Of a DNA stretch of 64,000 nt, positions 14,201-54,296 are shown in pieces. Position numbers and translations under genes: made by a program. The notes under the pieces were generated by a model. It saw only the letters and a list, made by a program, of their open reading frames with translations, did no database searches and had not been told where the DNA came from. Each line of letters starts with the position of its first letter. The stretch's first letter is position 1. This DNA is from Candidatus Nitrospira nitrosa (GTDB lineage Bacteria > Nitrospirota > Nitrospiria > Nitrospirales > Nitrospiraceae). Location: positions 558,001-622,000 of the forward strand of contig NZ_CZQA01000008.1 in the NCBI RefSeq assembly GCF_001458735.1, given 5' to 3'.

Positions 14201-17090
14201 TCGTGGGAGACGCCGCATCCGTATTCTCATAGGTGATGTTCTTGATCAGCGCCGTGACGGCCGTGGGCGTGGCACTGCTATTGAGGGTAATCACGAGGTT
14301 CGTGCCATTGCTGCCACCGGTGAAGGTGCCGATGGTCACGCCGCCGTAGGTGACCGTGCTGCCGCTCACCCCGATTTGCCCCGCCCCGGTCCCTTGATTG
14401 AGAATACTGAGCACATCTTCGGCGCTGTCCCCGCCGGATGGAATGGAGATGGTGAGTGTCCCGGTATCGAAGTTGGTCGAGTCGATATCGGCCACGAGGG
14501 CATTGGCGCCTTGCTCGATCACCACCGCCCCGGCGCCTTCGCTATAGCTCAGGCTATCTCCACTCAAATTAGAGATGGTGGGCACATCGTTGACCGCCGT
14601 AACCGTGATCGCGACTGCGTCGGTATCGGTGAGGGATACATCCGCAGCGAGCGCCGCCACTTCGCTGGCCGTCAGTGCCCGGTTGTACACACGCGCGTCA
14701 TCGATTTTACCGTTGAAGTCGAACGCCGTTTGGCCGTTGCCATGCTTGCCGATAAAACTATTGGCTCCCTGTGTGTACGAAATGGACGCACTGGCCGTCG
14801 CCGTCGCCACCGCCGCACCATCAATGTAGAGTGTGTTCGTGTTATTCGTGTCGTCAAAGATGTAGGCGATATGGTGCCATCCGGTGCCGGCGATGAATTG
14901 TCCAGTGGTGAGTTTGACCCAGGTGGAGCCGTTGTAGTACACACCTGACACTCCATTCCCTAAGCTCGGCTCATCAACCGTAAGCAGCACGCTGTCGCCC
15001 AACGAGATCACGTGGGAACCGAGGCTATCTGCGGCCGTCAGGTTCACCCAGGCCGCCAGCGTCACGTTGGCCGGATCGCCGAATCTCCCGGTAATCTGCA
15101 CGTAGTCATCGACACCGTCGAGACTGAGCACTTGCCCGCGTGGCGCGTCCGTCACGTAGGTGGCATTCCCTCCCAGGGTACCGTTCTGCGCCGTGCCTGG
15201 AGCCACATCGTTAGCCGTGCCCTCGAAGGTGTAGCGAGCTTGGAGGTTGGCGTCGATGTCGAGCGAGACGAGCGTGCTATCGCGCGTAGCAACCGTTAGA
15301 GTCGCGCCGCCGTTGTAGTCAGAGGTTGGAGCATAGGTAAGTCCATTCAACGCGGTATTGATATTGGCCACCGTGCCGCGGAAGGTCATCGTCGTATCGG
15401 TCGTGCCGTCGCCACTGATAAACGTGAGGCCCGTGGTGCCCGCGAGTGTGAGGCTGCCATTGGTCACGGAGACCGTCACCTCAAAACTCGCACCGCTCGA
15501 ATCAGGATCCGTAATCGAGATCTGATTACCGTTGCCCGCTGAGAACACCAGATTCGTGTCTTCGTTGATACTCTGCGCGCCAGGCAGGGCGTTGATCGGC
15601 GCATCGTTGCTCGTGGCATAGAGCTGTGCGACGTCTCCCTCGGTCAGCACTCGGTTGTAGACGCGGACATCGTCGATCAGTCCAGTCGTATACCACGTAC
15701 CTCCACCAGAATCTTGGTTCCGCCCGATGGCCATCGAGTCGAGGCTGGTGACGCTGCTGAAGAAACTTTGTGTCGTTGCGTTGCCGGCGTCGTAGGTGAG
15801 TTGGCCCGCTGTTGCGAGAACTCCATCCACGTACAGACTGTTTCCGGAGGCCCCTACCGTTACTGCGACATGATGCCAATTGCCATCGTTAATGGTGGCA
15901 CTGCTCCGATACACTGCCAGCTGCAGGACCCCGTTCTCCCTCACCTCGTAGGTGAGGTAACCCGAGGCACCGAGGAACAACGCCGCAGAACTCCCGGTGT
16001 CGGCTGTATCGGAGATCGAGAAGATTGTCTCAAAGGTGCTCGTGGTCTTGATCCAACCGGCAATCGTGCCCTGGGTGAGTCCGGCCAAATTGGCGCTATG
16101 GGCGGAGAGATCGACGTAGTCATTGACGCCATCTAAAGACAGCTTTGCTACTCCGACGATGTCCGTCGCATCGGTCGTGTCAATCGCCGCGCCGTTGGTC
16201 AACGTACCGTTATAGTTATTGCCACTGCTGTCAGTGGCATTCGTATCGAACGTCCAGTTGCCGAGGAGACCGGTGGAGATGTCCAGCAACCCGACCCAGT
16301 CCATCTGCAGGGCATCGGTCACGGCAATGTGCGTTTCAATGGCGCCGGTCTGGGTCTCTAAGATCCAGTCACCGCCGAGGCTCGCCGCGCCGGTCGCGTC
16401 GGTACTGGCCGCGACATCGGCGCCGGTCAATTGGCTCAGCAGAGCCACCGCGTCTTGCCCCACATCGCCTTCGGCAAAGTCGCACCCATAGACGAGGATG
16501 TCGGCCTGTTCCGAGAGTGCCTGTTGGATGATCGTGAGTTCGTCGGCATACTGGCCTGTCATGGATGCTTGCGTCAGTGTGCCTGTTCCCAGGGAAAGCT
16601 GGCCTTCGGCCCCGTGGCTAATAATATGAATGGCATCGATCCCGGTTCGGCCCGCAAGCGAGGCCGCGATCTGCTCCATGCCATCTTGCCCACCGTCCAA
16701 CATGACAATCTGGACATTGGGTCCCATACCGGCACTGAGCGTTTGATAATCCGGCACGGTGGGATCGACGAAGGCGACTTCGGTCGTGGACTCACCCGGG
16801 CTATAGGAGGCAATCGCTTGGAGCAGGTCCTGCGACTCAGTCTCCGCCGCTGTCGGCTCACCTCCATTCCCCTCTGCGGACACTGCTGACTCAGCCTGTG
16901 CCTGCGCGACTTGCTCTTGATTCACTTCGGACGCAGTGGCCGTGGCGGCGGCGTCGAACATGAGACGGGATTCAAGGGAAAGGAGCGATAACTTCGGCGG
17001 AGCGGCATTGGGGTCGTTGGAAGCCGGCTTCGAGGAGCGGCTCGGCTGAGGAGGTGTCTGTGGCTGTGGCTTTTTCTTTCGCCAGAACAT
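5241..17090 (-). CDS. Giant DUF4347 multi-domain surface protein (3949 aa)
   Basis: The largest gene in the window. It has a basic, Pro/Gln-rich N-terminus and a motif SLESRLMFDAA at residues 38-48 (a variant of the 'LEPR' motif of exported giant proteins). A DUF4347 domain follows at about 104-270, with HIISHGAEGQLSLG and ILVYGCDFAEGDVG. Four LamG-like jelly rolls lie near residues 277-490, 600-817, 1420-1617 and 1803-2007, and a galactose-binding-like module near 1000-1160. Between them are many cadherin/VCBS/Ig-like repeats ending in AVND. A delta-60 beta-propeller occupies about 2500-2880. The C-terminus is Pro-rich, then has a membrane segment (about 3866-3895) followed by a DPLPV motif and a charged tail. 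It is probably an adhesin or matrix protein. ATG at 17090 matches the start of its paralogue at 20811 (MFxRK). The ribosome site is weak (GAGGGGGG). It was probably exported by the nearby TolC/HlyD/M50 genes (inference). Confidence 0.9.
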   Translation of the reverse strand: MFWRKKKPQPQTPPQPSRSSKPASNDPNAAPPKLSLLSLESRLMFDAAATATASEVNQEQVAQAQAESAVSAEGNGGEPTAAETESQDLLQAIASYSPGESTTEVAFVDPTVPDYQTLSAGMGPNVQIVMLDGGQDGMEQIAASLAGRTGIDAIHIISHGAEGQLSLGTGTLTQASMTGQYADELTIIQQALSEQADILVYGCDFAEGDVGQDAVALLSQLTGADVAASTDATGAASLGGDWILETQTGAIETHIAVTDALQMDWVGLLDISTGLLGNWTFDTNATDSSGNNYNGTLTNGAAIDTTDATDIVGVAKLSLDGVNDYVDLSAHSANLAGLTQGTIAGWIKTTSTFETIFSISDTADTGSSAALFLGASGYLTYEVRENGVLQLAVYRSSATINDGNWHHVAVTVGASGNSLYVDGVLATAGQLTYDAGNATTQSFFSSVTSLDSMAIGRNQDSGGGTWYTTGLIDDVRVYNRVLTEGDVAQLYATSNDAPINALPGAQSINEDTNLVFSAGNGNQISITDPDSSGASFEVTVSVTNGSLTLAGTTGLTFISGDGTTDTTMTFRGTVANINTALNGLTYAPTSDYNGGATLTVATRDSTLVSLDIDANLQARYTFEGTANDVAPGTAQNGTLGGNATYVTDAPRGQVLSLDGVDDYVQITGRFGDPANVTLAAWVNLTAADSLGSHVISLGDSVLLTVDEPSLGNGVSGVYYNGSTWVKLTTGQFIAGTGWHHIAYIFDDTNNTNTLYIDGAAVATATASASISYTQGANSFIGKHGNGQTAFDFNGKIDDARVYNRALTASEVAALAADVSLTDTDAVAITVTAVNDVPTISNLSGDSLSYSEGAGAVVIEQGANALVADIDSTNFDTGTLTISIPSGGDSAEDVLSILNQGTGAGQIGVSGSTVTYGGVTIGTFTGGSNGTNLVITLNSSATPTAVTALIKNITYENTDAASPTTGARTVRYVLTDDDGGTSANYDTTVMVTAVNDAPVLALGATNLLTNGSFESGGTGWTGNSGVEATTRPGDYGIPAPPDGTGFLEVEGGNAPAGTESYVEQTFTTVVGQTYVVSLSAITRMDVNVQDRGALSINGVEIGRFTTGTSWQDYAVSFTATSTSSTLQIISKGSLSGTASLGGDAGGLLIDHVQVVAVQTAAAYTEGGAPVVLAGTARVFDAELSGLNTFNGATLTLARNGGANAEDVFSGSGTLSLSSGNVVVGGTTIGTYTNGGGTFQITFNASATNTLVNSAIQQIAYSNSSDAPPSSVQVNWTFNDGNSGSQGTGGALTATGNTTVSITAVNDAPINSVPSAQSTNEDTSKVFSSANGNQISITDPDSSGASFEVTVAVTNGTLTLSGTAGLTFTAGDGTSDSTMTFRGTVTAINTALNGLTYNPTSDYSGGATLTITSLDNTLVSLNIDANLQARYTFEGTANDVAPGTAQNGTLTNGATIITDGTRGQVVQLDGIDDSVEVSGLYGSSQTVTLTGWVNLNAGRTDNYMISLGDSIGLSLDGGSGVYGYFYDGTTWQTTDSSQFVAGTGWHHVAYTFNDAADTQQIYIDGVLTATTSFTGSISYTLGTNSSIGKHGNADTFYMGGMLDDVRVYNRVLSAAEVADLANDLALTDTDTVAITVTAVNDAPVLTDTVLTFAVAEDAGAPSGAVGSLMSEFTSGITDVDSGAAKGIAITGTDETNGTWYYTMNGGTTWTAVGSVSSASSLLLADNGSTRLYFAPSADYAGTSTAALTVRAWDQTSGTVGSKVDTSTNGGTTAFSSATDTVDVTVTAVNDAPTDLSSGIELNTDGGNDAYLISDTGLSQSLTATTVEIRFAANDLPLETVLLSFNNPAGDEFSIQLDDPSNNLELDFGGGTVALASAIDYRAALVDGAVHTLSVAWDSTAGNWSVYIDGSVIESGTGLNVGTPLDTTNGQFVFGQEQDGQNSGYDSTQYFSGTFYDVRIWNDVRTAGEIAQYDQQQLDVTPAEAAAIGLVANWQMDGFDGSSQVVDIVSGNNLSIAHASGTGFTTGAVDSQLSIEENSANGSHVGFVTTQDPDAGEAFSYSLTDSAGGRFAVNATTGEITVANGTLLDYEAATSHNITVRVTDSGGLTYDETFTINLTNVNEAPTGADATITINEDSSHTLATGNFGFSDVDAGDSLSAVRIDTLPSVGSLTLSGVAVTAGQVIAVADITAGNLVFTPVADASGTGYASFTFSVRDSNNAYDAAPNTLIFTVSAVDDATVVTGGTSGSGTEDTTVTGTLTATDVEGLSDGTVFTVSGAATSGTASIDPATGLWSYTPTADFNGSDSFTVTITDDAGNTTTQVINVTVTPVNDAPTITSLSGDSLSYNEGAGAVVIEQGGNALVADVDSTNFDTGTLTVSIPSGGDSAEDVLSIRNQGTGAGQIGVSGWNITYGGTTIGTFTGGSSGSNLVITFNSNATSTAVTALVQNITYENTDTAAPTTGARTVRYVLTDGDGGTSANYDTTVTVSSVNDAPTFGVGDGQATTSFGSGWEFGKETILQPDGKILVAGYSDSGGSDDFSLTRYNADGTLDTSFGGGDGIALAGIIGRAETAVLQPDGKIVLSGYTTNGGYQVCLVRFNVDGTLDTSFGGGDGIASSGVYGSAKDVALQTDGKFLVAADLSNNNFNLMRFNSDGSLDTSYGGGSGYVSTDLAGSTDRADSLTIQSDGKVVLAGFGFNGTSFDFALVRYNTDGTLDTSFNGTGKVLTDFGGNSSDTGNEVRVQADGKIVVAGWSDTGGTNDVAIARYNANGTLDTGFGTGGQVILNLGGNDLAEGLTIQADGKILVTGTAGINGNDFGLVRLNPDGSLDTTFSGDGIVTTDYTASSDDRAYSVVVQSDGHIVVSGTSKVGALGEYNYALTRYTSTGALDTTLDPVNTLDGTPTFTEGGSPVVLDGDVQIVDAELSALNNFNGATLTLTRNGGANAEDVFSSSGTLSSITAASGNVVVGGTTIGTYTNSGGTLVFTFNSNATNSLVNSAMQQIAYSNSSEAPPSSAQINWTFNDGNTGAQGSGGALTATGSTTVTITAVNDAPVLADTALALTVAEDAGAPSGAVGSLISAFTGGITDVDSGAAKGVAITGTNETNGTWYYTTNGGTTWTVVGAVSSASSLLLADNASTRLYFAPNADYNGTSTGALTLRAWDQTSGTAGTKVSTATNGGTTAFSSATDTVDVTVTAVNDPTVVTGGTSGSGTEDTTVTGTLTATDVEGLSDGTVFTVSTNATQGTASIDPATGLWSYTPTADWNGSDSFTVTITDDAGNTATQVISVTVTAVGDITNDSLTTAEDTAISANVLTGTTGATADSFEGTPVLTGVTQGMNGSVTFLANGTVTYTPNANFTGSDSFTYTITSGGVTETSTVTVTVTAVNDPTVVTGGTSGSGTEDTTVTGTLTATDVEGLSDGTVFTVSTNATQGTASIDPATGLWSYTPIADWNGTDSFTVTITDDAGNTATQVISVTVTPVNDAPVLTANIGSTVAEGGIDLIDASELAVTDVDNSAAQLTYTIGTGPLYGRLELTTAPGVTATTFTQADIVANRLIYVHDGSEITSDNFTFTVNDGAGGSLGVTTMSLTITPVNDAPTITSNGGGTTAAISVAENVSAVTIVTGADVDLPVQALTYSISGGVDQARFTINAVTGALNFTAPPDFEAATDANGDNMYVVQVRVTDSQGASTTQTIQVTVTDVLESAPPPSPPAPVVPPVLVSPLPLPGEETFGPGTSRPVAPVTSVNKELIPPPVLPGPMRPPLEGAPVTVGPVLIVPSTNRPVERVPEEPKRPTADERETPLFLVNDDQGRPLFSVLPVEPVPTLEPDPPERTPSVSDLLMAKLDEMTVSLEQAVDVAQEHHELMARVAAVTGTTLSVGFVAWALRSGAILASCLATMPAWRHFDPLPVVKLTRSERKHRRDEATQAQREEAEEFKGLKRVLDDKPPLKRSA
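6667..6962 (-). repeat. 296-bp direct repeat, copy A (VCBS-like module)
   Basis: This encodes one VTGGTSGSGTEDTTVTG... Ig/VCBS-like module of the giant protein. It is nearly identical at the DNA level to 7231-7526, with about ten differences counted by eye, which implies a recent internal duplication. A more diverged third copy lies near 10125-10400. Confidence 0.85.
7231..7526 (-). repeat. 296-bp direct repeat, copy B (VCBS-like module)
   Basis: Partner of 6667-6962, offset by exactly 564 bases. The two copies flank a different, tandem-95-like module (about 6963-7230). Confidence 0.85.
8440..9590 (-). repeat. Delta-60 (DUF5122-like) propeller repeats inside the giant gene
   Basis: Around residues 2500-2880 the pattern 'LQPDGKILVAG...FSLTRYNADGTLDTSFGG' recurs about seven times at roughly 50-60 residues per unit. 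This is the delta-60 repeat known from Deltaproteobacteria and their relatives, thought to form a beta-propeller. It is inserted between two cadherin-like modules. Confidence 0.8.
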
Positions 17091-17697: not shown

Positions 17698-20600
17698 TTA
17701 GGACTGGCCAGATTTCGGTGAGACCTTGCGATCGTTCCTGGATTCCTGTGGAACTGATTCTTCCTCATCTTCATTCGATTCCCCAGGTTTCGTCTCGGAC
17801 GGAGGCCCTTGAGAAAGCCCACGTATCCGTCTGCTCATGACAGTCATCTTGTCTTTCATACCAGTACGTCCGTGCAGCATCATCATACCTGCTAACCCAG
17901 CCGCCATTGGCCTGTCCAGTCCGCTGGATTCGTCTGAGGTCCTCTTCATCTCTCCTGCATGCAGCACAGTCGGGTTGTGTGATTCCAGGCGGGCAACGTC
18001 CAGGTTCCCCGTTGCGTCGAAATTCATTGTGCCCCCTTCTCTCTTGTCGGAAGGAGTAGGTAGATGCTGCTTCCCTCCTAAAATAGCCGCCTGTTCAAGA
18101 ACCACTGTATGAGCGAGGGGTGGAAGATTTTTTGCCGGAGTCATGATGGCGTCCACTCTGAATGACGGTTCAGGTCTCACTCCAATCGACATCCCCAAGC
18201 CATCCAGCGGATGGACTTCCACCTCACGAATTGTGTTTGCACTCTCCACTGCCGAAGCCACAGGCTGTGCAGCTCCTAGGACCGCTATCACCGTATTTGA
18301 CTCCAGAGAACCATCCAAGTTCGGCGCCTCGTTCACATTGGTCAGGTTAATCGTAAACGTTTCGTCATACGTCAGGCCCCCCGCATCCGTCACCCGCACC
18401 GTCACGCTGTGGCTCGTCGCACTCTCGTAGTCCAACAAGGTGCCATCGGCCACGGTGATTTCGCCCGTGACACTATTGATCGCAAACCGCCCTCCGGCTG
18501 TATCCGTGAGGCTATAGCTCTTCGTATCACCGGTATCGGGATCGGTTCCCGTGACAAGGCCCACCACCGCCCCGTTCGCCGCGTTCTCCGCGACCATGTT
18601 CGCTGACAGCCCCAGGTCCGTCGGTGCCTCGTTCACATTGGTCAGGTTAATCGTAAACGTTTCGTCATACGTCAGGCCCCCTGCATCCGTCACCCGCACC
18701 GTCACGCTGTGGCTCGTCGCACTCTCGTAGTCCAACAAGGTGCCATCGGCCACGGTGATTTCGCCCGTGACACTATTGATCGCAAACCGCCCTCCGGCTG
18801 TATCCGTGAGGCTATAGCTCTTCGTATCACCGGTATCGGGATCGGTTCCCGTGACAAAGCCCACCACCGCCCCGTTCGCCGCGTTCTCCGCGACCATGTT
18901 CGCTGACAGCGCCAGGTCCGTCGGCGCCTCGTTCACATTGGTCAGGTTAATCGTAAACGTCTCGTCATACGTCAGGCCCCCCGCATCCGTCACCCGCACC
19001 GTCACACTGTGGCTTGTCGCACTCTCGTAGTCCAACAAGGTGCCATCGGCCACGGTGATTTCGCCCGTGACACTATTGATCGCAAACCGCCCTCCGGCTG
19101 TATCCGTGAGGCTATAGCTCTTCGTATCACCGGTATCGGGATCGGTTCCCGTGACAAGGCCCACCACCGCCCCGTTCGCCGCGTTCTCCGCGACTATGTT
19201 CGCTGACAGCGCCAGGTCCGTCGGCGCCTCGTTCACATTGGTCAGGTTAATCGTAAACGTCTCGTCATACGTCAGGCCCCCCGCATCCGTCACCCGCACC
19301 GTCACACTGTGGCTTGTCGCACTCTCGTAGTCCAACAAGGTGCCATCGGCCACGGTGATTTCGCCCGTGACACTATTGATCGCAAACCGCCCTCCGGCTG
19401 TATCCGTGAGGCTATAGCTCTTCGTATCACCGGTATCGGGATCGGTTCCCGTGACAAGGCCCACCACCGTCCCGTTCGTCGCGTTCTCCGCGACTATGTT
19501 CGCTGACAGCGCCAGGTCCGTCGGTGCATCATTGACGGCACTGACGGTCACAGTCGTATTGTAGTTCGGACTGGTGCCGCCGTCCCCATCGGTCAGCACA
19601 AACCGCACCGTACGCGCCCCCGTCGTCGGTGCATCGGTGTCCGTGTTCTGATAGGTGATGTTGCGCACCAGCGCCGTCACCGCCGTCGGCGTGGCACTGG
19701 CATTGAACGTGATGACTAAGTTGCTGCCGCTGCTGCCCCCCGTAAACGTCCCGATCGTCGTCCCACCATACGTCACCGTGCCGCCGCTCACGCCGATCTG
19801 GCCCGCCCCGGTGCCTTGATGCCGAATGCTCAGCACATCTTCGGCCGCGTCGCCCCCGGCCGGAATGGAGACGGTTAAGGTCCCGGCATCCAAGTTTGTC
19901 GAGTCCACATCGGCCACCACCGCGTTCCCACTTTCGATCACCACCGCCCCGGCCCCCTCGCTGTAGGCCCGGCTATCCCCACTCAAGCTCGTGATCGTGG
20001 GAGGCGTTTCGCCTGCCAACAGCCCGACCCAATCAACCTGGGTGTCGTAGCTGACAACCGTCTGCGCTTCGATGGTCCCGATGTGTAGTTCGAGGTCCCA
20101 ATTGCCCCCCCATCCGGCATAGCCAGTGTCGTCGATACTCGCTGCCACATCAGCTCCGGTCAGTTGGCCAAGCAACGTGGCCGCATCCTGGCCGACTTGG
20201 CCTTCCGCAAAATCACAGCCATAGACCAGGATGTCAGCCTGCTCTGACAATGCCTGCTTGATGTTCGCAAGTTCATCCGCATACCGACCGGTCATGGATG
20301 CTTGCGTCAGCGTGCCGGTGCCGAGTGAGATCTGGCCTTCGACCCCGTGGCTGATGATGTGAATGGCATTGATCCCCGTTCGCCCTGCCAGTGACGCGGC
20401 GATCTGCTCCATCCCGTCCTGTCCACCGTCGAGCATGACGATCTGGATATTGGCCCCCATCCCCGCGATGAGCGATTGATAATCTGGCACGGTGGGATCC
20501 ACGAAGGCGATTTCGGTGGGCGTCTCTCCAGGTGAATAGTTAGTAATCGCCTGCAATAGTTCTTGGTTCTCAACAGACGGCTGGCTCTCCGATACCGAAG

Positions 20601-20811
20601 TGTGGTCGCTCGATATCGCTGCCTCAGCCTGCTCCTGTGCGACTTGTTCTTGGTTGACTTCCACTTCCGTGGCAGCCGCCGCCGCATCGAACATGAGGCG
20701 GGATTCAAGGGAGAGTAGCGATGCCTTGACTCGGGACGCTGCTGGCGCCTTTAGCGCCGACTTCGGCCTGTTCTTCTGCGGCGAAGAGATGGGTCTTTTT
20801 CGTCCAAACAT
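17698..20811 (-). CDS. DUF4347 cadherin-repeat surface protein (1037 aa)
   Basis: A shorter paralogue of the giant protein. The basic N-terminus is followed by the same SLESRLMFDAA motif (34-44), then a DUF4347 domain (about 100-265) with HIISHGVEGQISLG and ILVYGCDFAEGQVG. A module near 270-430 (SYSEGAGAVVIE-like, also present in the giant protein) comes next. Four almost identical 100-aa cadherin-like repeats follow (about 434-834), each with AEN..NG..VG and TDAGGLTYDETFTINLTNVNEAP. The last 200 residues are different from the giant protein: they lack its strong membrane segment and DPLPV motif, have only a short hydrophobic MAAGLAGMMML, and end in an acidic/basic low-complexity tail. Probable role: exported adhesin or matrix component. 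The two genes are in the same direction, so they may form one transcription unit with a 600-base gap. Confidence 0.9.
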   Translation of the reverse strand: MFGRKRPISSPQKNRPKSALKAPAASRVKASLLSLESRLMFDAAAAATEVEVNQEQVAQEQAEAAISSDHTSVSESQPSVENQELLQAITNYSPGETPTEIAFVDPTVPDYQSLIAGMGANIQIVMLDGGQDGMEQIAASLAGRTGINAIHIISHGVEGQISLGTGTLTQASMTGRYADELANIKQALSEQADILVYGCDFAEGQVGQDAATLLGQLTGADVAASIDDTGYAGWGGNWDLELHIGTIEAQTVVSYDTQVDWVGLLAGETPPTITSLSGDSRAYSEGAGAVVIESGNAVVADVDSTNLDAGTLTVSIPAGGDAAEDVLSIRHQGTGAGQIGVSGGTVTYGGTTIGTFTGGSSGSNLVITFNASATPTAVTALVRNITYQNTDTDAPTTGARTVRFVLTDGDGGTSPNYNTTVTVSAVNDAPTDLALSANIVAENATNGTVVGLVTGTDPDTGDTKSYSLTDTAGGRFAINSVTGEITVADGTLLDYESATSHSVTVRVTDAGGLTYDETFTINLTNVNEAPTDLALSANIVAENAANGAVVGLVTGTDPDTGDTKSYSLTDTAGGRFAINSVTGEITVADGTLLDYESATSHSVTVRVTDAGGLTYDETFTINLTNVNEAPTDLALSANMVAENAANGAVVGFVTGTDPDTGDTKSYSLTDTAGGRFAINSVTGEITVADGTLLDYESATSHSVTVRVTDAGGLTYDETFTINLTNVNEAPTDLGLSANMVAENAANGAVVGLVTGTDPDTGDTKSYSLTDTAGGRFAINSVTGEITVADGTLLDYESATSHSVTVRVTDAGGLTYDETFTINLTNVNEAPNLDGSLESNTVIAVLGAAQPVASAVESANTIREVEVHPLDGLGMSIGVRPEPSFRVDAIMTPAKNLPPLAHTVVLEQAAILGGKQHLPTPSDKREGGTMNFDATGNLDVARLESHNPTVLHAGEMKRTSDESSGLDRPMAAGLAGMMMLHGRTGMKDKMTVMSRRIRGLSQGPPSETKPGESNEDEEESVPQESRNDRKVSPKSGQS
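18321..19520 (-). repeat. Four tandem 300-bp repeats (cadherin-like modules)
   Basis: Units begin at 18321, 18621, 18921 and 19221 with an exact 300-base period and differ at only a handful of positions each. Every unit encodes one 100-aa module. Such near-identity at synonymous sites points to recent expansion or gene conversion. The array is a likely site of length variation and of assembly collapse. Confidence 0.95.
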
Positions 20812-21107
20812 GGCTCGGATCTCGTGGTTTCAACAAGACGTTGTCAGGTCTTCATCGGCTCATTCTCTTCAGCACTGGAGATCTCGGTGCAGGTTTTGGT
20901 CCACATCAGTCCTCAGGAACGGGCATGAACCCACTCCAACGGTTCTCAATAGGACACTAACCAGCCACAAACAGCACCTGAACGTGCACAATGTGTCCAA
21001 CAGCCTCACATGGCTCACGCCTTACACCAGATTCATCAAGATGTTTCCGCCAGCCACCGATACGACTGGTACAGTTCTCCGATCACTTCTCGAAGGAGTA
21101 CGACACC
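20812..21107. other. Divergent promoter region
   Basis: About 300 bases lie between the minus-strand DUF4347 gene and the plus-strand TIGR04255-like gene. Both promoters should be here; I cannot identify clear -35/-10 pairs or operator palindromes. Confidence 0.4.
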
Positions 21108-21833
21108 ATGAATCCTGTTTGGGAACAATCCACCCATTCACCGCTCCTCTCCGTGACCTGCCAGGTTCAGGTCCCGATGATTCTGAAAATTAACCAGGAG
21201 TTGCCGGCTTTCTTTCAGGAACAGCTCCGGAAAGACTATCCGCTGTTTCAGCCGACCAAAGATCGTCAAGGCTACCGTTTGGCCAGTCAAGACAACGATC
21301 ATGAGATCCTCTTGCTCCCGGATTCGTTGACAGTCCGAACCAGTCACTATACCGGATGGCCACCGTTCCAGGTTCAGGTATCAGAAGCCGTTCGTGCCTT
21401 ACAGGCCAGCTATGAACCGGCCTTCTGCGCCCGCGCCGGCCTGCGCTTCCAAAGCCTCTTGCGCCCGACTCTCTATGGTTTCACAAAGATTCAGTGGGCT
21501 GCGCTCATTAACGCCAGGGTACTCGGCCCCTTTTCGCTTCCAGGCCACAAAGGACAGCTCCAAGGCAGCCGCCATGAGGTGGTGGTGACGCTCCCTGCGA
21601 GCACAGACCGATTCCGTCTGACACATGGATTCGTCCAGTATCGAGATGCGAAGCAGGCCAATCAGCAGGGAACACCGGCTTACCTGCTAGACCAGGACTA
21701 CTTCACGACTCAACGCGTGGAGTGGGACACGCTGATGGCGACGCTGGACCGCTTCGAACAGGAGGCAGGACAGTTCTTCCAGCTCTGTGTGACCGACCAA
21801 TTTCACCAAGCTATGCTCGCCCAAGCGGCGTAG
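21108..21833 (+). CDS. TIGR04255-like protein
   Basis: A 241-aa protein. The open frame extends up to 20991, but ATG at 21108 has a good ribosome site (GAAGGAG, 10 bases upstream), while upstream residues look random. The pattern FFQEQLRKDYPLF, LRFQSLLRPTLYGF, INARVLGPF and FRLTHGF is like the TIGR04255 family, a sporadically distributed family of about 250 aa with no assigned function. There is no signal peptide or membrane segment. It sits between the giant adhesin genes and the M50/HlyD/TolC operon, facing the latter. A link with that system is possible but unproven. Confidence 0.65.
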   Translation: MNPVWEQSTHSPLLSVTCQVQVPMILKINQELPAFFQEQLRKDYPLFQPTKDRQGYRLASQDNDHEILLLPDSLTVRTSHYTGWPPFQVQVSEAVRALQASYEPAFCARAGLRFQSLLRPTLYGFTKIQWAALINARVLGPFSLPGHKGQLQGSRHEVVVTLPASTDRFRLTHGFVQYRDAKQANQQGTPAYLLDQDYFTTQRVEWDTLMATLDRFEQEAGQFFQLCVTDQFHQAMLAQAA

Positions 21834-22047: not shown

Positions 22048-24189
22048 TCAGAAGCCGCTCTCTCTGACCAAGGTCGCTGCCACCTGATCCCATGCCCGTT
22101 TGGCCACGCTCGATGGTTGGCCCTCGATCTGGACATGGCCGGGCAGGATTAGGCCAGGACCCATTGCCGCCTCGTCTAAACTCAACCGTACCCGATAGAC
22201 AGAGCGTTCAGGTTTAAGTCGCCCCATATCATCTTTTCGCACAGGGATATCCCCGCCATATATCGAGGCGAGATAGGGCACCGTGAACTCTCGCTCGTCC
22301 ACCTCCGCAATCTGCGTGACATGGGCTCTAACTGATGGCCTGGTGAGATCGAGCGGGATAAACCACGCTGGTTGCCCGATTGCCACATAGGCCAGCTCGT
22401 CGACCGGCACAAAGCTTTCAATCTCTGTCCGGTGCTCGTCTACGAGATATGCGAGCGGCACTTTCTGGTCTATCCATCGTCCGGTAGTCAGTGAATCCGC
22501 GCGATCACGCACAATTCCAGAGATCGGAGCCTTCAAGGTTAAGTTGGCTCGTTTCGCCTCAAGCCCCGACAGTTCGGCGAGTCCTGCCCGCAGTGATTCC
22601 CCGATCACCTGACGCTGATCACGATCCTGCCCGTAGCCGGCCAATCGGCCAAGGCGGTAGTCCCACATAGCGACTTTGGTTTCGGCCAGCCGTACGTCTT
22701 TGTCCAACGACGGATTTTCCAACACGACAAGCGCATCCCCCGCTTTGACGACCTGCCCATCGCGCACCAGCACCTCCTGAAGACGGCCTGCGGTCGGCGC
22801 AAAGATGGTCGCGTAGGATGAGGCTTGCAAGACAGCAGGGATCGAGATACTCGTCTGTACGGGAATCACTGTCATCGCTAACAGGGCCACCAGACAGGCG
22901 GTACTGAACCAAGCTCGTGGCGAAGCGGCATACAGCTTACGACTATTCCACCAGGCGGTCAGCTCCCGATAGATCGGCATGGCGATGAACCAGACAATCT
23001 CGACCAAGAAGAGAAGAATGCCCAGGGCTTTGAAGAAATAGTGATAGACCATCACCGCGATGCCGGTGAACAAGATCAGGCGATAGAGCCAGATCGCCCA
23101 CGCATAGACCACCAGGGTGTGTTGCACCCGTGTCGACAGGGTTTCTGGAGCTGCGCCATGACGGCCGAATAACAGATTCCGCAATCGCCATTGTCCAAAG
23201 GCAAAGGCTCTATCTTGCAGATTCGGCAGACCCAATCCGTCCGCCAACACGTAGTAGCCGTCGAATCGCATCAGCGGATTCAGGTTGACGACCAAACTCA
23301 TCGCGAGACTGGTCGTGGCTACGATGAAGGCAATGCTCCGCAACGTCCCTTCCGGCAAGAACCCCCAGGCAAAGAGTGCCAGTGCCGCGAGTCCGAGTTC
23401 GGCGATGATTCCCCCGGCCGCGATAAGGAGTCGCTTCCGTTTGGATGTCAGGCGGTACGAATCGGTCACGTCCGAGTACATGACCGGCATCATCACCATA
23501 AACGCCACACCCATAGTCGGTACTCGACACCCAAACCTGGTCGCCGTATAGGCATGACCCAACTCGTGCACGATCTTCACAGCACCGAGCGACAGACTGT
23601 AGAGGATGGCTCCACGCCAATTAAAAAAGTAGAGGAACGTCGAGACGAACGTGTCCCATTGCCGTCCCACCAGGATCAACCCGAAAAACCCCAGGACACC
23701 AAAGGTCGACCCAGCGATCCTTGTGTAGAACGGCTCCACAAACGGCAGGGTGGACTTCAGAAAGTTATGCGGATGGACCAGCGGGATCTTGATGAACAGA
23801 TAGTGGTGGACCACCCACATCAACCAATTGTGTTCACCGGCTTGGGCCTGAGTCTGGTAATCCGTGTGCTTCCCGCTTGCGGACTGCTCCGTCAAATTAT
23901 TCGTATAGAGAAACTTCACCAAGTCTTCTACATCCGCGATGGTCGTGTGGCAGGTCGTGTCCTTCGTCATCGCGGCATGGAGCTTCTCGATGGTTCCTGC
24001 GCTCCAGCGTTGGATCATCTGATAGACAGGCCACTCGATCTGGAAATACCGATTGCGAATTGGATCGACGATGGTCCAGGTCGGCACCCCATCAGGCGTA
24101 GGGGTTCCACGATTAAATTGCAGATTCGGTCGAAGGGTCGGCAGCTTCCGTTCTTGTGGCTTGGTGCCCGGTGCTTCAGGGGAACCCAT
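22048..24189 (-). CDS. M50 metalloprotease fused to an HlyD-type adaptor, with PqqD-like N-terminus
   Basis: A 713-aa membrane protein. Residues about 36-100 (DPIRNRYFQIEWPVYQMI...) resemble the PqqD/RRE fold that binds leader peptides. Membrane helices follow, with the zinc motif HELGH at 208-212 and the second site NLNPLMRFDGYY (Asp309), as in site-2 proteases. After the last helix (about 425-450) comes a barrel-sandwich/HlyD region with IFAPTAGRLQEVLVRDGQVV and LTLKAPISGIV. The family includes peptide-zinc-metalloprotease proteins of exporter operons. It is the last gene of the four-gene operon and starts 3 bases after the GAF-HlyD gene. Inference: it is the inner-membrane component that processes or hands over the DUF4347 cargo. 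Confidence 0.85.
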   Translation of the reverse strand: MGSPEAPGTKPQERKLPTLRPNLQFNRGTPTPDGVPTWTIVDPIRNRYFQIEWPVYQMIQRWSAGTIEKLHAAMTKDTTCHTTIADVEDLVKFLYTNNLTEQSASGKHTDYQTQAQAGEHNWLMWVVHHYLFIKIPLVHPHNFLKSTLPFVEPFYTRIAGSTFGVLGFFGLILVGRQWDTFVSTFLYFFNWRGAILYSLSLGAVKIVHELGHAYTATRFGCRVPTMGVAFMVMMPVMYSDVTDSYRLTSKRKRLLIAAGGIIAELGLAALALFAWGFLPEGTLRSIAFIVATTSLAMSLVVNLNPLMRFDGYYVLADGLGLPNLQDRAFAFGQWRLRNLLFGRHGAAPETLSTRVQHTLVVYAWAIWLYRLILFTGIAVMVYHYFFKALGILLFLVEIVWFIAMPIYRELTAWWNSRKLYAASPRAWFSTACLVALLAMTVIPVQTSISIPAVLQASSYATIFAPTAGRLQEVLVRDGQVVKAGDALVVLENPSLDKDVRLAETKVAMWDYRLGRLAGYGQDRDQRQVIGESLRAGLAELSGLEAKRANLTLKAPISGIVRDRADSLTTGRWIDQKVPLAYLVDEHRTEIESFVPVDELAYVAIGQPAWFIPLDLTRPSVRAHVTQIAEVDEREFTVPYLASIYGGDIPVRKDDMGRLKPERSVYRVRLSLDEAAMGPGLILPGHVQIEGQPSSVAKRAWDQVAATLVRESGF

Positions 24190-24192
24190 CCT

Positions 24193-25560
24193 TTACCAGC
24201 CTATCCATTGCCGAAGCGCGGTGATTGGACGGCGCAGGAGCAGATAGGCCAGCGGCCCTTGCTCGCCATAGACCTTGGCCGTGCCCTGCCATCCAATGCG
24301 AATACGGGGATCCGGTGTGGCGAGCTTTGCGGTGACCCGGTACGCCAGGACGTCGCCGGGCAGAACCTCAGCGTGGTAACTGGCATGGACGACGGTCGCA
24401 GGAAACGATTCCAGTGCGAGCGCATTGAGGAAGATCAGCGCCTCGGCGCCTTCTTTGAGCACAATGGCATCGGCTACCGGCAGATCGATGCGCAGTTCGA
24501 TCTGTTTGGGATCGGCGATCTCCATGATCCGCTCCCCCACAGTGACCGGCCGGCCGATCCAATCGGACTTGTCTGAATACAGCAGCAACCCGGCTTGGGG
24601 AGCGATGACCTCGACCTGATTGAGCATTTCTTTCGCGTACTGCAGCTCGGTTTGTCGAAGATCAACCTCCGCTTCTTTCAACGGCACCTCGGCTTTCCGT
24701 TGTGGATCGCCGAACCCTGCTTGGATGGATTGACTGTGCTCCGCCCGTGCGACAGTTAATTGTTTTTCCGCGACGAGGAATTGGTTCCGTAGCGTCGTAT
24801 CTTCATACCGAAATAGTACCGTGCCGGCTTGCACGATTTGGTTCGGAGGCACAAGCACATCGGCGATCACCCCGTCGATGGGGGCACTCACGACGATGGG
24901 ATCTTTGGCCATCACTTTGACCGGCGCCACGGATGAAATTCGGATCGGAATGCACAGCGCGGCGACGATGGCGATGGGAATCAACCACCAGGTCGGCTTC
25001 TTGATCTTCTTCGACCAACTTCGCTCCTTCTTCGAGAGGGCCTTCCACGCATAGGCATAGCTCCCCGCCAACCGATGGACGATGGCGACATCGTTCTCTG
25101 CCCACGGGAAATCCCGCTCGAACCACCACACGCCTAGCAGGGTTTCGTCAGGATGTTGTAACGGACACCAAAAGACTTGCCCCTTGACGAATTCCCGCCA
25201 GCCACTGCGGAGTGATTCCGGCAGCAACTCTTCCGTCACGACCATCGGTTGCTCGCTCGCGGCCCCGGCTTGGCGCAGCGCTTGCACCGCCTCTTCAAGC
25301 CACACGATCACTGGGGCATCGCGATCCACAACGGCAACGCTTGCTGCGTTCAGCAGACGATACGCCTCGCCCGTCGCACCGGAATTGCTGAACAGAAAGG
25401 CCTGATCGTAGGGAATCAGTCGCCGCGTCTCGTTGACAGAGAGAAACTGTAGTTCTTGAATGGTTTTCGCCGCCCGGACCTGCCCCTCCAAATGCGTCAG
25501 GGCCGCCAGGTGAATCAGTGCCGGGAGCTGCTGCGCGGTCGGTTCGGCCGTCGTTGCCAT
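24193..25560 (-). CDS. GAF-like domain plus HlyD-type adaptor
   Basis: A 455-aa protein. Residues about 20-185 look like a GAF domain in the cytoplasm (LQFLSVNETRRLIPYDQAF, LLGVWWFER). A basic stretch (KKERSWSKKIKKP) precedes one membrane helix (about 200-220). The rest is an HlyD/MFP-type periplasmic adaptor: VSAPIDGVIADVLVPPNQIV, a short coiled coil (AEKQLTVARAEHSQ), VEVIAPQAGLLLYS and a C-terminal barrel. Fusing a GAF sensor to an export adaptor is unusual and suggests that export responds to a cytoplasmic ligand. The gene lies between the small adaptor (gap 2 bases) and the M50 gene (gap 3 bases), so they must be one operon. Confidence 0.82.
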   Translation of the reverse strand: MATTAEPTAQQLPALIHLAALTHLEGQVRAAKTIQELQFLSVNETRRLIPYDQAFLFSNSGATGEAYRLLNAASVAVVDRDAPVIVWLEEAVQALRQAGAASEQPMVVTEELLPESLRSGWREFVKGQVFWCPLQHPDETLLGVWWFERDFPWAENDVAIVHRLAGSYAYAWKALSKKERSWSKKIKKPTWWLIPIAIVAALCIPIRISSVAPVKVMAKDPIVVSAPIDGVIADVLVPPNQIVQAGTVLFRYEDTTLRNQFLVAEKQLTVARAEHSQSIQAGFGDPQRKAEVPLKEAEVDLRQTELQYAKEMLNQVEVIAPQAGLLLYSDKSDWIGRPVTVGERIMEIADPKQIELRIDLPVADAIVLKEGAEALIFLNALALESFPATVVHASYHAEVLPGDVLAYRVTAKLATPDPRIRIGWQGTAKVYGEQGPLAYLLLRRPITALRQWIGW

Positions 25561-25562
25561 CG

Positions 25563-26345
25563 CTAGGGCTGCCCCATAAATTGCGCGGACCCGCTCATCC
25601 CACTCAGGACGTCTTTGGGAAGGGTGTCGAACACTCCGGTCACTTTCACGGTCTGACTCGCGGCATCGACCGCCGCTCCGATTTCCTTGACCTTCGCTGC
25701 ATAGCCCAGGCCTGTCTCATCTACGATAAAAGTGAACCGTGCCTGCCTCTTAAGCCACGCCAACGCCGTGGACGGCAAGACCAGTTCAATCTCAAGACTC
25801 CTATCATCCAGGACACTCAGTAGTTTGTCGTTGGGGAACACGTTCTCGTGTTCATGCACCATCACATCGACGATACGCCCGGAAAATGGCGCGTCCAGAT
25901 GGCACCCACGCACATTGATCTCCGCGATCCGCCTTGTGGCATCGGCCTTTTTGGCATCGGCCTCCGAGACCTCCAGATCCAACGTACTGACTGCATTGAG
26001 TTTGGCAAGCTCCTTATTGTTTAGAAACGTTTTGCTCTTCCCTTCGTACTCCGCAGCAGCCGCCGCCAATTCGGCCTGATACTTGTCACACTCCAATTGC
26101 ACCAGTGTTGCCCCTTTGGCAAATCGCTGTCCTTCTTTGTACGGAACTTGATTGACCCGCCCCTGGATCTGGGCATAGAGCACGGCCCGTGAAACCGCCT
26201 TCACAATTCCCCGAGCCACTCCCACGTCCTGCTTTGTTCCCTGTGCCGATCGGTCTCCTTTCGACCACCCCGTCGATGGAACGCCCATCGTCATTGCGGT
26301 CAGGAGCACGGCTGCTACCACACTAGTGTGCTGCCGGTGTCGCAT
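25563..26345 (-). CDS. HlyD/RND-type periplasmic adaptor (short)
   Basis: The open frame starts at 26387, but ATG at 26345 has an AAGGAG site upstream and opens a proper signal peptide (RHRQ, hydrophobic core, then STGWS-K). The 260-aa product has the usual adaptor halves: IQGRVNQVPYKEGQRFAKGATLVQLECD, a helical hairpin, CHLDAPFSGRIVDVMVHEHENV, then a beta-barrel with SLEIELVLPSTAL. It is shorter than most RND adaptors (about 350 aa) and lacks a membrane-proximal domain. Its start lies 23 bases inside the 3' end of the TolC-like gene, indicating translational coupling. Confidence 0.85.
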   Translation of the reverse strand: MRHRQHTSVVAAVLLTAMTMGVPSTGWSKGDRSAQGTKQDVGVARGIVKAVSRAVLYAQIQGRVNQVPYKEGQRFAKGATLVQLECDKYQAELAAAAAEYEGKSKTFLNNKELAKLNAVSTLDLEVSEADAKKADATRRIAEINVRGCHLDAPFSGRIVDVMVHEHENVFPNDKLLSVLDDRSLEIELVLPSTALAWLKRQARFTFIVDETGLGYAAKVKEIGAAVDAASQTVKVTGVFDTLPKDVLSGMSGSAQFMGQP

Positions 26346-27897
26346 GAGGCTCCGTTCTCCTTTCTCCTCCCGACATCGTGAACCCACTGGGTTCCCAATA
26401 CTCCCTGATCGCTTCCGTTAGTTGTGCCACACTTTGTTCAGCTATGCTGGAAGGAACCGCTTCTTCCCCCATGGTGGCCATCAGGGTGGCGTAGGCCGTT
26501 TCCAATCCGGCTCGCGCCGTGTCCAACCGGACATCGGCAGCGACATCGTTGGCTCGTTCTCGAATCAGTGTGAGATCGTTCGTGCGCTCAGTCAGCCACA
26601 AGTTCTTGGTCTGCTCCACAATTGCACTCTGTGTCTGCTGGTAATTCCTCGCATCCTGATATTCCTGCTTGGCCAGCACAAACTGTGTTGCGCCAACATG
26701 GACCTCCGTCAGAATGGACATGCTGAGCGCCAGGCTTTGGACATCCAGCATGTGGCCGTTTGCTTCGATTGCTTTGAGTTTGGCCGGCGCTCGAAACACC
26801 GAGAGCAGATTCCAGCTTGCCTGGGCGGCATAGCTGAGCCAATTCTGATACAAGAGGAAACTGTTGCTGTTATAGTAGCCGCCGAGCGAGACCTTGAGGT
26901 TCGGGAATAATTCCAGAAACACCGCTTTGGCTTCCTTGGCGTTAATGCGCTTCTTATAGTCGATGGTGCGCAACTCTGGTCTGAGCAAGAGTGCCTGCTC
27001 TTCCATCTTCTGACTATCCAAGTTGACGACGGGAATCGCGGTTTCTCTGGGAGGTACGACCAGATCAAACGACGTTCCGGGCGGCAAGCCGATCATGGAA
27101 GCCAGCTGCAGCTTCGCAGTACTGAGTTCACGAAAGAGTCGCCGCACTTCACGCTGGATATTGAGCAAATCTCGTTGATAATTGAGCGGCGTCAACGGCG
27201 CCTGAAGTTTCTGGCCGACAATCTGCCTGGTACTCTCCAGGGCTTTACTCACGGAATCGTCCAAGAACTGAATTCGAGGAAGCACCCGTTCCGCACTCAC
27301 CGCCCGCCAATAGGCCCCTCTGACATCTTGGATCAACCGCACCGCCAGACGCCGTTTTTCCTCTTCTGCCACCAGCACATTGTCGGCTGCCTGTTGTGCG
27401 CGTACGAACGACAGGCCAAAGTCGAGCACATCCCAACTTAATGCAAGGTTGCCGGCCAGGACGTTCTTTTCGGATGAGGTGAAGGGTTCGATCGCCTGGC
27501 GCCCCGTGAGAATCGATTGCCCAACTCCGCCGGCAAAATTATTCCGTCCATCGAACCCGGCATTGGCGGCGACTTGCGGGAGGAGTGAATAGTGCGCCAC
27601 GTTCAACTGCTGATGCGCCAGTTGGACTTGAATCGCTTTGACCTTCGCATCCAAGTTGTATTTGACCGCCCGTGCCATCGCCTCATACAGATCAATCGGC
27701 CCAGCAACCGGCTCGTCCACAGCGGAGATGGCAAGAAAGTCCTTGACCGCTCGAGCATGGATTTCTCCATTCTCCATCGGATGTGGCTTGATCAGACAGC
27801 CGCCCATCGTGAGCAGTATCATCACGGTTACGACAGCCCGAACGGCGGTGCGCATCGTTTGTAACTGACCACGTCGCAGCAGACAGATTGCCTGCAC
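26323..27897 (-). CDS. TolC-family outer-membrane factor (lipoprotein)
   Basis: A 524-aa protein that starts at GTG 27897 with the ribosome site GGGAGG. A lipobox M-G-G-C ends a long signal (about 34 aa). Two outer-membrane efflux repeats follow (VKYNLDAKVKAIQVQLAHQQL and the second near residue 320, LRPELRTIDYKKRINAKEA), with long helices and aromatic-rich strands such as SLGGYYNSNSFLLYQNW. It is the first gene of the operon and overlaps the next one. Role: the outer-membrane channel of a tripartite exporter whose inner parts are the two adaptors and the M50-HlyD protein. Confidence 0.9.
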   Translation of the reverse strand: MQAICLLRRGQLQTMRTAVRAVVTVMILLTMGGCLIKPHPMENGEIHARAVKDFLAISAVDEPVAGPIDLYEAMARAVKYNLDAKVKAIQVQLAHQQLNVAHYSLLPQVAANAGFDGRNNFAGGVGQSILTGRQAIEPFTSSEKNVLAGNLALSWDVLDFGLSFVRAQQAADNVLVAEEEKRRLAVRLIQDVRGAYWRAVSAERVLPRIQFLDDSVSKALESTRQIVGQKLQAPLTPLNYQRDLLNIQREVRRLFRELSTAKLQLASMIGLPPGTSFDLVVPPRETAIPVVNLDSQKMEEQALLLRPELRTIDYKKRINAKEAKAVFLELFPNLKVSLGGYYNSNSFLLYQNWLSYAAQASWNLLSVFRAPAKLKAIEANGHMLDVQSLALSMSILTEVHVGATQFVLAKQEYQDARNYQQTQSAIVEQTKNLWLTERTNDLTLIRERANDVAADVRLDTARAGLETAYATLMATMGEEAVPSSIAEQSVAQLTEAIREYWEPSGFTMSGGERRTEPHATPAAH

Positions 27898-30451: not shown

Positions 30452-32803
30452 TCAAGAAACCTGCTGGCATTGAGAAGAACTGCTCGAGCATCTCGGTTGA
30501 CGCAGGAGCGACAGCAATTCCACCTCTCTCTCGAAAGATTCCGAGCTGGGAGCAACCAAGGGATCGTTGACCTCGATCACCGTAGCCGGTTGATCTTGAG
30601 AAGTGGGACTCCGCGTGAGGCTCCACTGACTTCTCACTGTGACTTGTGATCCATCCCGACGCACATGGATGAGCTGCCCTACCCACCTCCCCTTTGCGCG
30701 AAGCTCCTCTTGAATCACATCAAGCGAAACAGGGAATACCGTCTTGAGCAGTCGATGGGAAGTGGTCCCCAAGACATCGTGAGGTTCCCATCCATACAGA
30801 GCCTTGGCCTCAGGACTCCAGTATCGGATAGTACCATCTAGGTTGCGGACCATGAGCGCCTCGTTACCAACAGTGCTGGCGTCGCCCGCTGTATCCCATC
30901 CCCGAGAAGGGGGGGCAGTGTGCTCTCGCGTCAACATGCCATGTGTCAATTGCGCGACGAGGACGGAACCTGGCGTGGTTAGATGAAGTCTATCTCCAAA
31001 ATACACCACCCCGTCTTTCACCACATCACACTGAGATCGATCGCAGAACAACTGGGAGATATCGATAAACTCAAAACCAAACTTTTCAGACTCTTCAGAA
31101 AGGGCGGCATTCACAGCATCTAAGTCGTCCGTCCCTAACTTGAGAGTCTTGGGAATCCCTTGCTCAAACATCTCAAGCTTATAAGTATACCGCTGCACGT
31201 CGGCTGAGAGCCGGGCGACCTGAGAATAGATGATGACTCGATGGTCCTTCAATTTCTCAAATAACTCAGCGAGTTGAAGTCGAAATTCTTCGTTGCCGAT
31301 TTTTTCATACAGCCGCAACCAGTTGGATGACACAATAATTGGATCCAATTTATGGTTAGGGACATAGTCATTCACAAACCAGTCGTAAAAATCAGCACAC
31401 CGCCCCTCCGTCACACGCACGGCCCAGCAAGACCCACCTGTTAGTTGTATGATGCGATCCTCACCAAGCACACGTACAAGCCCTGGGTATAATTGGGCAG
31501 CGAGGCTATCTCCATACAATACAAATCGATTCGAGGGTCGGGACGTACCATCGTGTGTCTGAACGGAGGATGCCTCTGATGCCCCGTCACAGTGGTTCTG
31601 CAAGAGCGTAGTATAGGGCTGGTCCACTTCAAAAAAACATGTATAGATTCGCCATTGCGCTTCCATGTCTGTCGCGAGCTTAGTTTTCCCTTCCACGGTA
31701 GCCAGCTGCAAACCGACAGTGGAAACCACGAGCACCACCGCAGAAGCCAACGACACTCTCCACAGTAATTGTTTCGAGATGAGCGCCCCACGACGAAACG
31801 GCGTTTCAACATACCGCCACGTGACATAGGCGAGACCGAAGGCAAGAGCGACAAGGCCTGCGACAACCACTTCATCAGGCTCAGTCAGGCTTCGATGGCG
31901 GGCAAACGCCAACAACGGCTGATGCCATAAGTAGGCACTGTAGCTGACCAGCCCCACCCCAACGAGCACTTTACTCATCAACAACCGCCCAACAAATGTG
32001 TCCGGCAAGGCAAACACGATTATTAACCCGGCACCGACTGTGGGTATCAACGCATACACACCAGGAAATGGGGTCTCTTTGCTGAGAGTCAGGACTCCGA
32101 CAACGATCAATCCGAACCCAATGAGACTGAGCACTTGTTTGAGAACCAGAGGGATCCGGTCACGCTCGTTCGTTTCCAGGTAGAACGCGATAAGGGAACC
32201 CACGGCCAATTCCCATGCACGAGTCGGCAATAAAAAAAACGCCGCGACCGGTTTCGCGCTGCTCAGATACACAGCTACCGCGAAGCTGAGGAGCGCCACA
32301 ACTGCCACAAGTTTTACAATTCTCCTTCGCCCCATGCGCCAGGCAAACATCAGAACGAGTGGAAATAGGACGTAAAACTGCTCCTCTACCCCCAAACTCC
32401 ACGTATGCAGCAGCGGCTTCAGCTCTGTACCGGCATCGAAGTAATTACTGTGCTGCCAAAAAAAGATGTTCGACGCAAACACCAACACCGCGATGGCACT
32501 GTTCGCAAACTCTATCGCGTCGCTCGGCATGAGCCACAAGCAGGCAAAGGGTAAACACACCGCCATGACGAGATACAACGCGGGCAGAATACGCCGGGCA
32601 CGTCGTTCATAAAACTTCAGCAGTGAAAACTGACCGGCCTCAAGTTCCGCCAGAATAATCGTAGTAATCAAGTACCCGCTGATGACAAAGAACACGTCCA
32701 CGCCTATAAAGCCCCCACTGCAAAGCTGAACACCGGCGTGGAATAATATGACGGGCAGGACGGCGATGGCCCGCAAGCCATCTATTTCAGGACGGTAACG
32801 CAT
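30452..32803 (-). CDS. Acyltransferase-3/SGNH protein with a C-terminal PAS domain
   Basis: A 783-aa OafA/YrhL-type protein. ATG 32803 begins the conserved YRPEIDGLRAIAV; a GTG at 32842 would add 13 residues. About 1-345 is the integral-membrane acyltransferase (GFIGVDVFFVISGYLI, RRARRILPALY). A periplasmic SGNH-hydrolase-like domain follows, with GDSLAAQL (about 424) and DRLHL (about 603) as the catalytic blocks. Unusually, residues about 644-734 form a PAS domain: MVRNLDGTIRYWSPEAKALYGW...GRWVGQLIHVRRDGS. The first parts O-acylate envelope glycans; the PAS tail suggests sensing, or a fusion with a lost regulator. Family members usually end after the SGNH domain. Confidence 0.85.
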   Translation of the reverse strand: MRYRPEIDGLRAIAVLPVILFHAGVQLCSGGFIGVDVFFVISGYLITTIILAELEAGQFSLLKFYERRARRILPALYLVMAVCLPFACLWLMPSDAIEFANSAIAVLVFASNIFFWQHSNYFDAGTELKPLLHTWSLGVEEQFYVLFPLVLMFAWRMGRRRIVKLVAVVALLSFAVAVYLSSAKPVAAFFLLPTRAWELAVGSLIAFYLETNERDRIPLVLKQVLSLIGFGLIVVGVLTLSKETPFPGVYALIPTVGAGLIIVFALPDTFVGRLLMSKVLVGVGLVSYSAYLWHQPLLAFARHRSLTEPDEVVVAGLVALAFGLAYVTWRYVETPFRRGALISKQLLWRVSLASAVVLVVSTVGLQLATVEGKTKLATDMEAQWRIYTCFFEVDQPYTTLLQNHCDGASEASSVQTHDGTSRPSNRFVLYGDSLAAQLYPGLVRVLGEDRIIQLTGGSCWAVRVTEGRCADFYDWFVNDYVPNHKLDPIIVSSNWLRLYEKIGNEEFRLQLAELFEKLKDHRVIIYSQVARLSADVQRYTYKLEMFEQGIPKTLKLGTDDLDAVNAALSEESEKFGFEFIDISQLFCDRSQCDVVKDGVVYFGDRLHLTTPGSVLVAQLTHGMLTREHTAPPSRGWDTAGDASTVGNEALMVRNLDGTIRYWSPEAKALYGWEPHDVLGTTSHRLLKTVFPVSLDVIQEELRAKGRWVGQLIHVRRDGSQVTVRSQWSLTRSPTSQDQPATVIEVNDPLVAPSSESFEREVELLSLLRQPRCSSSSSQCQQVS

Positions 32804-33283
32804 GTCAATGATGTCACTGCCAATTGAAGCAAGCGAAAGCACAGCCTTCAGTCATCGGTCAGCATCAACCCCTAGGAAGATTTGATCCACTCTGTATATT
32901 GTCATCCAACTACTCAAACGCTGGAGATCCAACAAGTTTCCATACACAGTTGTAATACTAGCAGACTTAACATCATTTGCTGCTGATCCCTTGCACTGCC
33001 GTACAAGCTCGCGCTCATCAATACAACGTCCCAATCTTCTTGACTCTCCGCCACACTACCAACGCGCTTCCCTCCTCTAATTTACCAGAAGGCCGCATGA
33101 AGAACCATGCCCTGTTGATGCTGGTGATGGAGTTTCATCGATGGCCAGCAACAGACGGCGCCCAGCTCACCCCCCCTGCCAGGTGGGGAACTCCCGCGCA
33201 TTTAGAATCAGAAGAAATCTGTCGAGACGCGAAAATACGCTGACTGGCTTGTTCTTTCTTGAGGCGGAGCCTTGCGGATCTTC
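32804..33283. other. Intergenic stretch
   Basis: About 480 bases lie between the acyltransferase start and the PilZ-like gene end (both minus strand). It presumably carries the acyltransferase promoter. Apart from short unsupported frames I see nothing. Confidence 0.45.
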
Positions 33284-45448: not shown

Positions 45449-45449
45449 G

Positions 45450-48620: not shown

Positions 48621-48629
48621 GGTTGTTCC

Positions 48630-54273: not shown

Positions 54274-54296
54274 AAGGCACAAGAGATACTACAGAA

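Follow-up and report, generated by a model that had tools for sequence, protein, structure and literature searches.

A candidate SecA-less exporter for giant surface proteins with an N-terminal leader in Candidatus Nitrospira nitrosa

The four-gene operon described here is probably a dedicated export system that takes giant surface proteins with the N-terminal leader LExRxxFD[GA]AxxAT across both membranes. It lies in the window, a stretch of 64,000 nucleotides of Candidatus Nitrospira nitrosa DNA, and belongs, as a variant without SecA, to a little-known family of exporters, now with an identified cargo code. This reading draws on comparative genomics, namely a conserved gene cassette, its linkage to leader-bearing giants, an intact protease site and a clear split from a SecA-linked sister system. 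The genes concerned are as follows.

26323-27897, minus strand: TolC-family OMF, first gene of the operon (524 aa; OEP PF02321, 79.6 bits)
25563-26387, minus strand: soluble periplasmic adaptor of the HlyD/RND_mfp type (PF13437, 70 bits; TIGR01730, 112 bits, above the cut-off)
24193-25560, minus strand: GAF-like cytoplasmic domain, TM and HlyD adaptor (HlyD_3, 56.8 bits; model pLDDT 91)
22048-24189, minus strand: M50-HlyD protein (Peptidase_M50 PF02163, Biotin_lipoyl_2 and HlyD_3 PF13437; model pLDDT 84.5)
20991-21833, plus strand: TIGR04255-family gene, convergent, between exporter and cargo genes
17698-20811, minus strand: predicted cargo 1, leader LESRLMFDAAAAAT, DUF4347 and cadherin repeats (1037 aa; PF14252, 175 bits)
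5241-17090, minus strand: predicted cargo 2, leader LESRLMFDAAATAT, DUF4347, LamG, DUF5122 and cadherin/Big domains (3949 aa; PF14252, 188 bits)

The four exporter genes are tightly coupled on the minus strand, with gaps of 2 and 3 bases and one 23-base overlap, and the open reading frames match the original prediction in these details. A GTG start places the soluble adaptor at 25563-26387; the internal ATG at 26345, which is the likely start, gives the 23-base overlap with the OMF gene. This adaptor has a Sec signal peptide, and its Pfam matches are HlyD_3 and HlyD_D23. Pfam also agrees with the identities first proposed (channel, soluble adaptor, GAF-HlyD and M50-HlyD proteins), although the GAF domain is sub-threshold in the window protein and significant in only 7 of 41 orthologues, all of which show HlyD; in the AlphaFold model, the GAF-like region forms an alpha/beta domain. 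Both DUF4347 giants are encoded on the operon's strand and are set apart from it by the TIGR04255-family gene. Members of that family are also found at loci L108, L073 and L231, and their linkage to the exporter is partly conserved in Nitrospirota, several of which have the gene on the opposite strand between exporter and cargo.

Spread was probed with the M50-HlyD protein, for which a scan of species genomes turned up over 570 relatives, of which the best 80 come from Nitrospirota, Alpha-, Beta- and Gammaproteobacteria and one Desulfobulbaceae MAG. The cassette of OMF, soluble adaptor, GAF/HlyD and M50-HlyD genes is kept, and a DUF4347 giant adjoins most long loci; no further gene family common across phyla was found in the best 80, where ABC genes are sporadic. 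Two types can be told apart. Type A, the close relatives, occurs in 24 of 59 Nitrospirales genomes (36-99% identity, with a fragment in a 25th, G020), and type B, a distant form at 25-28% identity, in nine of the 59, the window's own genome included. One branch with support of 100/100 splits the two in a tree of 42 sequences, and the full-length M50-HlyD matches listed for 349 evenly sampled Pseudomonadota genomes form two score groups, at least 497 bits or at most 355.

When type A M50-HlyD was compared with DUF4347 giants across genomes, much as the original prediction had proposed, co-occurrence proved far above chance. All 23 Nitrospirales genomes with DUF4347 have type A, two have type A alone and 34 have neither (n=59; p ~2e-14). 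Among the 349 Pseudomonadota, 69 have both, 6 type A only, 21 DUF4347 only and 253 neither, which for type A against DUF4347 (75 and 90 genomes) gives an odds ratio of 139 (p 1.7e-46). These tests ignore phylogeny and treat as independent genomes that are not; the occurrence in several classes and two phyla makes the stronger case. Of 30 type A genomes, picked mostly for having no DUF4347 gene beside the exporter, 25 encode DUF4347 somewhere and five do not; of the six Pseudomonadota type A genomes (out of 75) that lack DUF4347, one has another leader-bearing cargo.

Co-occurrence and linkage thus bear out the expectation that the giants just beyond the operon are its cargo, with one refinement: judged by sequence, the cargo mark is the N-terminal leader and not DUF4347. 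The type A consensus was drawn from 59 sequences, in which the positions unfixed by the search pattern reach frequencies of 0.93 (F), 0.97 (A), 0.81 (A) and 0.92 (T). The leader's distance from the first possible start codon is about 7-115 residues, and its hydrophobicity is below that of the operon's own Sec signals. Nine leaders from Rhizobium and Hyphomicrobium (e.g., LEQRIAFDAAGAAT) fall outside the search pattern and were assigned by eye. DUF4347 giants of exporter genomes carry the leader, bar the Sec-signal protein of L215. DUF4347 itself was rejected as the mark on two grounds. In genomes that have no M50-HlyD exporter (L198, L199, L200, L202, L204 and L207), DUF4347 proteins lack the leader and either begin with the domain itself or carry a Sec-like signal. 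Conversely, leader-bearing cargo may lack DUF4347: L133 and L152 have such giants beside their exporters, and in L210 a 2107 aa protein with the leader LEQRFVFDGAGAGDA is encoded within the operon, flanked by the soluble adaptor and GAF genes. The motif is found in 5 of 565 other open reading frames of at least 350 aa in the loci, and all five are cargo-like and exporter-adjacent.

A third leader-bearing DUF4347 giant of the window's genome (3048 aa; G000:C1, L068:3495-12641, minus strand) lies far from the exporter, and one exporter may therefore serve several cargoes. A type VI effector candidate also contains DUF4347 (PMC8262886). L199, L200 and L215 form a separate DUF4347 group with Sec-like signal peptides; a sulfotransferase-like gene adjoins DUF4347 in L200 and L215, and in Pseudomonas it is found next to type A cargo too.

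The M50-HlyD protein combines a PqqD/RRE-like region (about aa 16-97), a site-2 protease, a lipoyl/barrel HlyD adaptor forming its C-terminal half, and a conserved C-terminal RESGF. The active site of the window protein reads HELGH (208-212) and NLNPLMRFDG (302-311). All 64 sequences compared (48 of type A, 16 of type B) keep HExxH and N-x-N-P...D unchanged, which makes an active protease most likely. The type A RRE-like domain lies below Pfam detection, and its call rests on predicted fold and on a profile alignment of the A and B N-domains: PqqD, which has the RRE fold, is detected in 8 of 16 type B relatives, and the alignment carries it onto the type A N-terminus. PqqD domains have three strands followed by three helices, and the AlphaFold model of the M50-HlyD N-terminus has the same order. 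Foldseek matched the HlyD part of this model alone, with no RRE match, and for both the M50 and GAF/HlyD models only HlyD-type matches were among the best 50. The daptide protease model NF041824 aligns to aa 40-404 with 157.8 bits, short of its cut-off of 300. In daptides, an N-terminal RRE is fused to a site-2 protease, leader removal is RRE-dependent and precursors carry the motif ELExMEAP (PMC10036551). Because the front half of the M50 protein resembles this leader peptidase, the simplest interpretation, and a likely one, is that a single fused protein recognises and clips the leader. The original prediction had the M50 protein replacing the motor or processing component; the processing half is likely, given the RRE-like domain and the invariant protease site, whereas the motor half is less favoured than an outside energy source.

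The sister system offers a useful comparison, and the window's genome has one of its own.

G000:C10 (L067:8235-18995 and L075:3-1664), minus strand: type B system with OMF, adaptor, short SecA, M50-HlyD with PqqD, GAF-HlyD and a giant with an LEPRLLLAAD leader

The giant of this locus scores as an LEPR-XLL domain protein (NF012209, 26.2 bits against a cut-off of 17). Two other type B exporters are accompanied by DUF4347 proteins (L201, L203) with leaders LEPRLLFSA or LEERLLLSA. Two leader codes track the two exporter types, FDGA with A and LLSA with B. The type B SecA paralogue is about 660-720 aa long and sits beside the M50 gene. Within Nitrospirales, the nine type B genomes and no others have the short SecA, always M50-adjacent; in Pseudomonadota it is found in 19 of 25 type B genomes versus 1 of 31 type A-only genomes. 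No SecA paralogue adjoins the type A loci, and the only short SecA of the window's genome belongs to the type B locus. A hidden paralogue was also sought in the 31 type A-only genomes: 30 have a single SecA, and the extra copy of the exception, G118, possibly comes from an unscored type B locus. SecA counts from a scan of all 349 Pseudomonadota were inflated by weak helicase matches and are of little use. Among type B-like loci, SecA is strongly diverged in L228 (G090) and was not found nearby in L201 (G274) and L229 (G098), which are possible further losses of SecA.

A locus with SecA_DEAD, M50-HlyD and GAF-HlyD genes was reported by Kamneva et al. 2015, cargo-less and with its role unknown, and the M50 protein was put forward as its pore (PMC4452313); the main text of that paper makes no mention of DUF4347 or LEPR. 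Like the window operon, this locus has an M50-HlyD protein with an intact S2P site, GAF-HlyD and further HlyD proteins, and no ABC transporter, its OMF being optional. The window system differs from it in forming a separate clade (100/100), in having no SecA paralogue, in a leader reading FDGA rather than LLSA and in having a likely known cargo. The suggestion of an unusual, possibly undescribed secretion system is thus narrowed: a SecA-bearing sister branch was already in print, and of the SecA-less type no description was found in open-licence literature.

Taken together, the parts suggest the following route. The M50 protein would bind the leader on the cytoplasmic side through its PqqD/RRE-like domain and then take it off with its intramembrane site-2 protease. 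A periplasmic conduit to the TolC-like OMF would be formed by the soluble adaptor together with the HlyD portions of the M50 and GAF proteins, and through it the freed giant would be threaded outward, folding on the surface as a cadherin/Ig/LamG fibre. Energy would come from outside the operon, by analogy most plausibly from the housekeeping SecA/SecYEG, although this is the weakest step and is put forward tentatively. Housekeeping Sec, or another outside source, is favoured over the M50 protein as the motor, since the sister system has a SecA paralogue of its own at that step.

It is conceivable, although unlikely, that the exporter is motorless, with the membrane domain of the M50-HlyD protein as the inner-membrane pore and the proton motive force, repeat folding outside the cell, or both as the driving force. 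No ATPase gene is common to the best 80 loci, the single SecA of nearly all type A-only genomes and the dispensability of HlyB and PrtD pumps described below point the same way, and an M50 pore has already been proposed for the SecA-linked sister (PMC4452313). Nevertheless, the SecA ATPase kept by that sister suggests a need for energy at the inner membrane, and a housekeeping motor is compatible with the absence of a linked one. Nor are S2P proteases known to act as protein channels. If this improbable reading were true, the operon would encode an ATPase-less two-membrane exporter in which an RRE-S2P-HlyD fusion recognises, clips and conducts giants, an undescribed class widespread in Pseudomonadota and Nitrospirota.

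A pump encoded elsewhere could instead join the adaptors and OMF, as in a scattered type I secretion or efflux system. The original prediction held that no ABC or RND motor is encoded near; this stands for the conserved cassette, which has none, but not for the window, where two pump systems lie 16-26 kb upstream of the four-gene operon.

44036-49823, minus strand: complete RND operon (OMF, ACR_tran pump and its own adaptor)
50578-54282, minus strand: ABC-2 exporter with its own HlyD protein, upstream of the RND operon

A sigma-54 regulator is found near them at 54637-56175. The nearby RND operon, 16 kb away, and the HlyB- and PrtD-type ABC pumps, both present in the window's genome, are what speaks for a scattered pump. 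Across genomes the picture is different. Among the best 80 of more than 570 related loci, an RND pump occurs in the flanks retrieved for only one and an ABC-2 permease in none. HlyB-type pumps over the cut-off are absent from the type A genomes G025, G048, G055 and G058, and PrtD-type pumps from the first three, which are 98-99% complete; all four have giants. Conversely, G012 and G018 have HlyB-type pumps yet no M50-HlyD exporter. Among HlyB- and PrtD-type pumps, the ABC classes scored, a motor consistently encoded elsewhere, which would have counted against the original prediction, was not found, and a constant partner of these two types is rejected. From gene content, a dedicated pump of these two types is dispensable for type A, and a scattered pump appears quite improbable. 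Least probable of all is that the operon exports or processes a peptide, lipid or drug, with the giants nearby by chance or for regulation: adaptor and OMF proteins serve mostly in drug efflux, but the linkage to giants across phyla, the leader code and the cargo gene inside the L210 operon make this very doubtful.

The window system shares HlyD adaptors, a TolC-like OMF and giant repeat-protein cargo with type I secretion (HlyB/HlyD/TolC), but has no ABC ATPase in the operon, and the conserved element found in its cargo lies at the N-terminus, type I cargo carrying an uncleaved C-terminal signal; from RND efflux it differs in having no RND pump in the cassette. The daptide RRE-site-2 protease (MpaP, NF041824; PMC10036551) likewise has an N-terminal RRE-like region, an S2P domain and an LE-motif leader as its target, whereas daptide cargo is a small peptide, the clusters include ABC transporters, and there is no OMF and no HlyD part in the model. 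LEPR-XLL proteins (NF012209) also have an N-terminal LExR motif on giants, but type A leaders read LExRxxFDGA and are unscored or below the cut-off of 17: no match was reported for the window cargo, and the G055 cargo reaches 12.9 bits.

For many giants whose secretion was previously unexplained, some with frames above 10,000 aa, these results suggest how export probably proceeds and supply an N-terminal tag that can be read as an address. The SecA-linked locus, cargo-less in 2015, now has a likely cargo in the LEPR-XLL giants, and comparison of the SecA-bearing and SecA-less branches makes the question of the power source directly testable. Two open frames with DUF4347 measure 14,920 aa (G094:C1:2731072) and 12,632 aa (G074:C4:61961). 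The window also encodes an unusual domain combination, a 796 aa fusion of acyltransferase-3, SGNH and PAS domains (30452-32842, minus strand).
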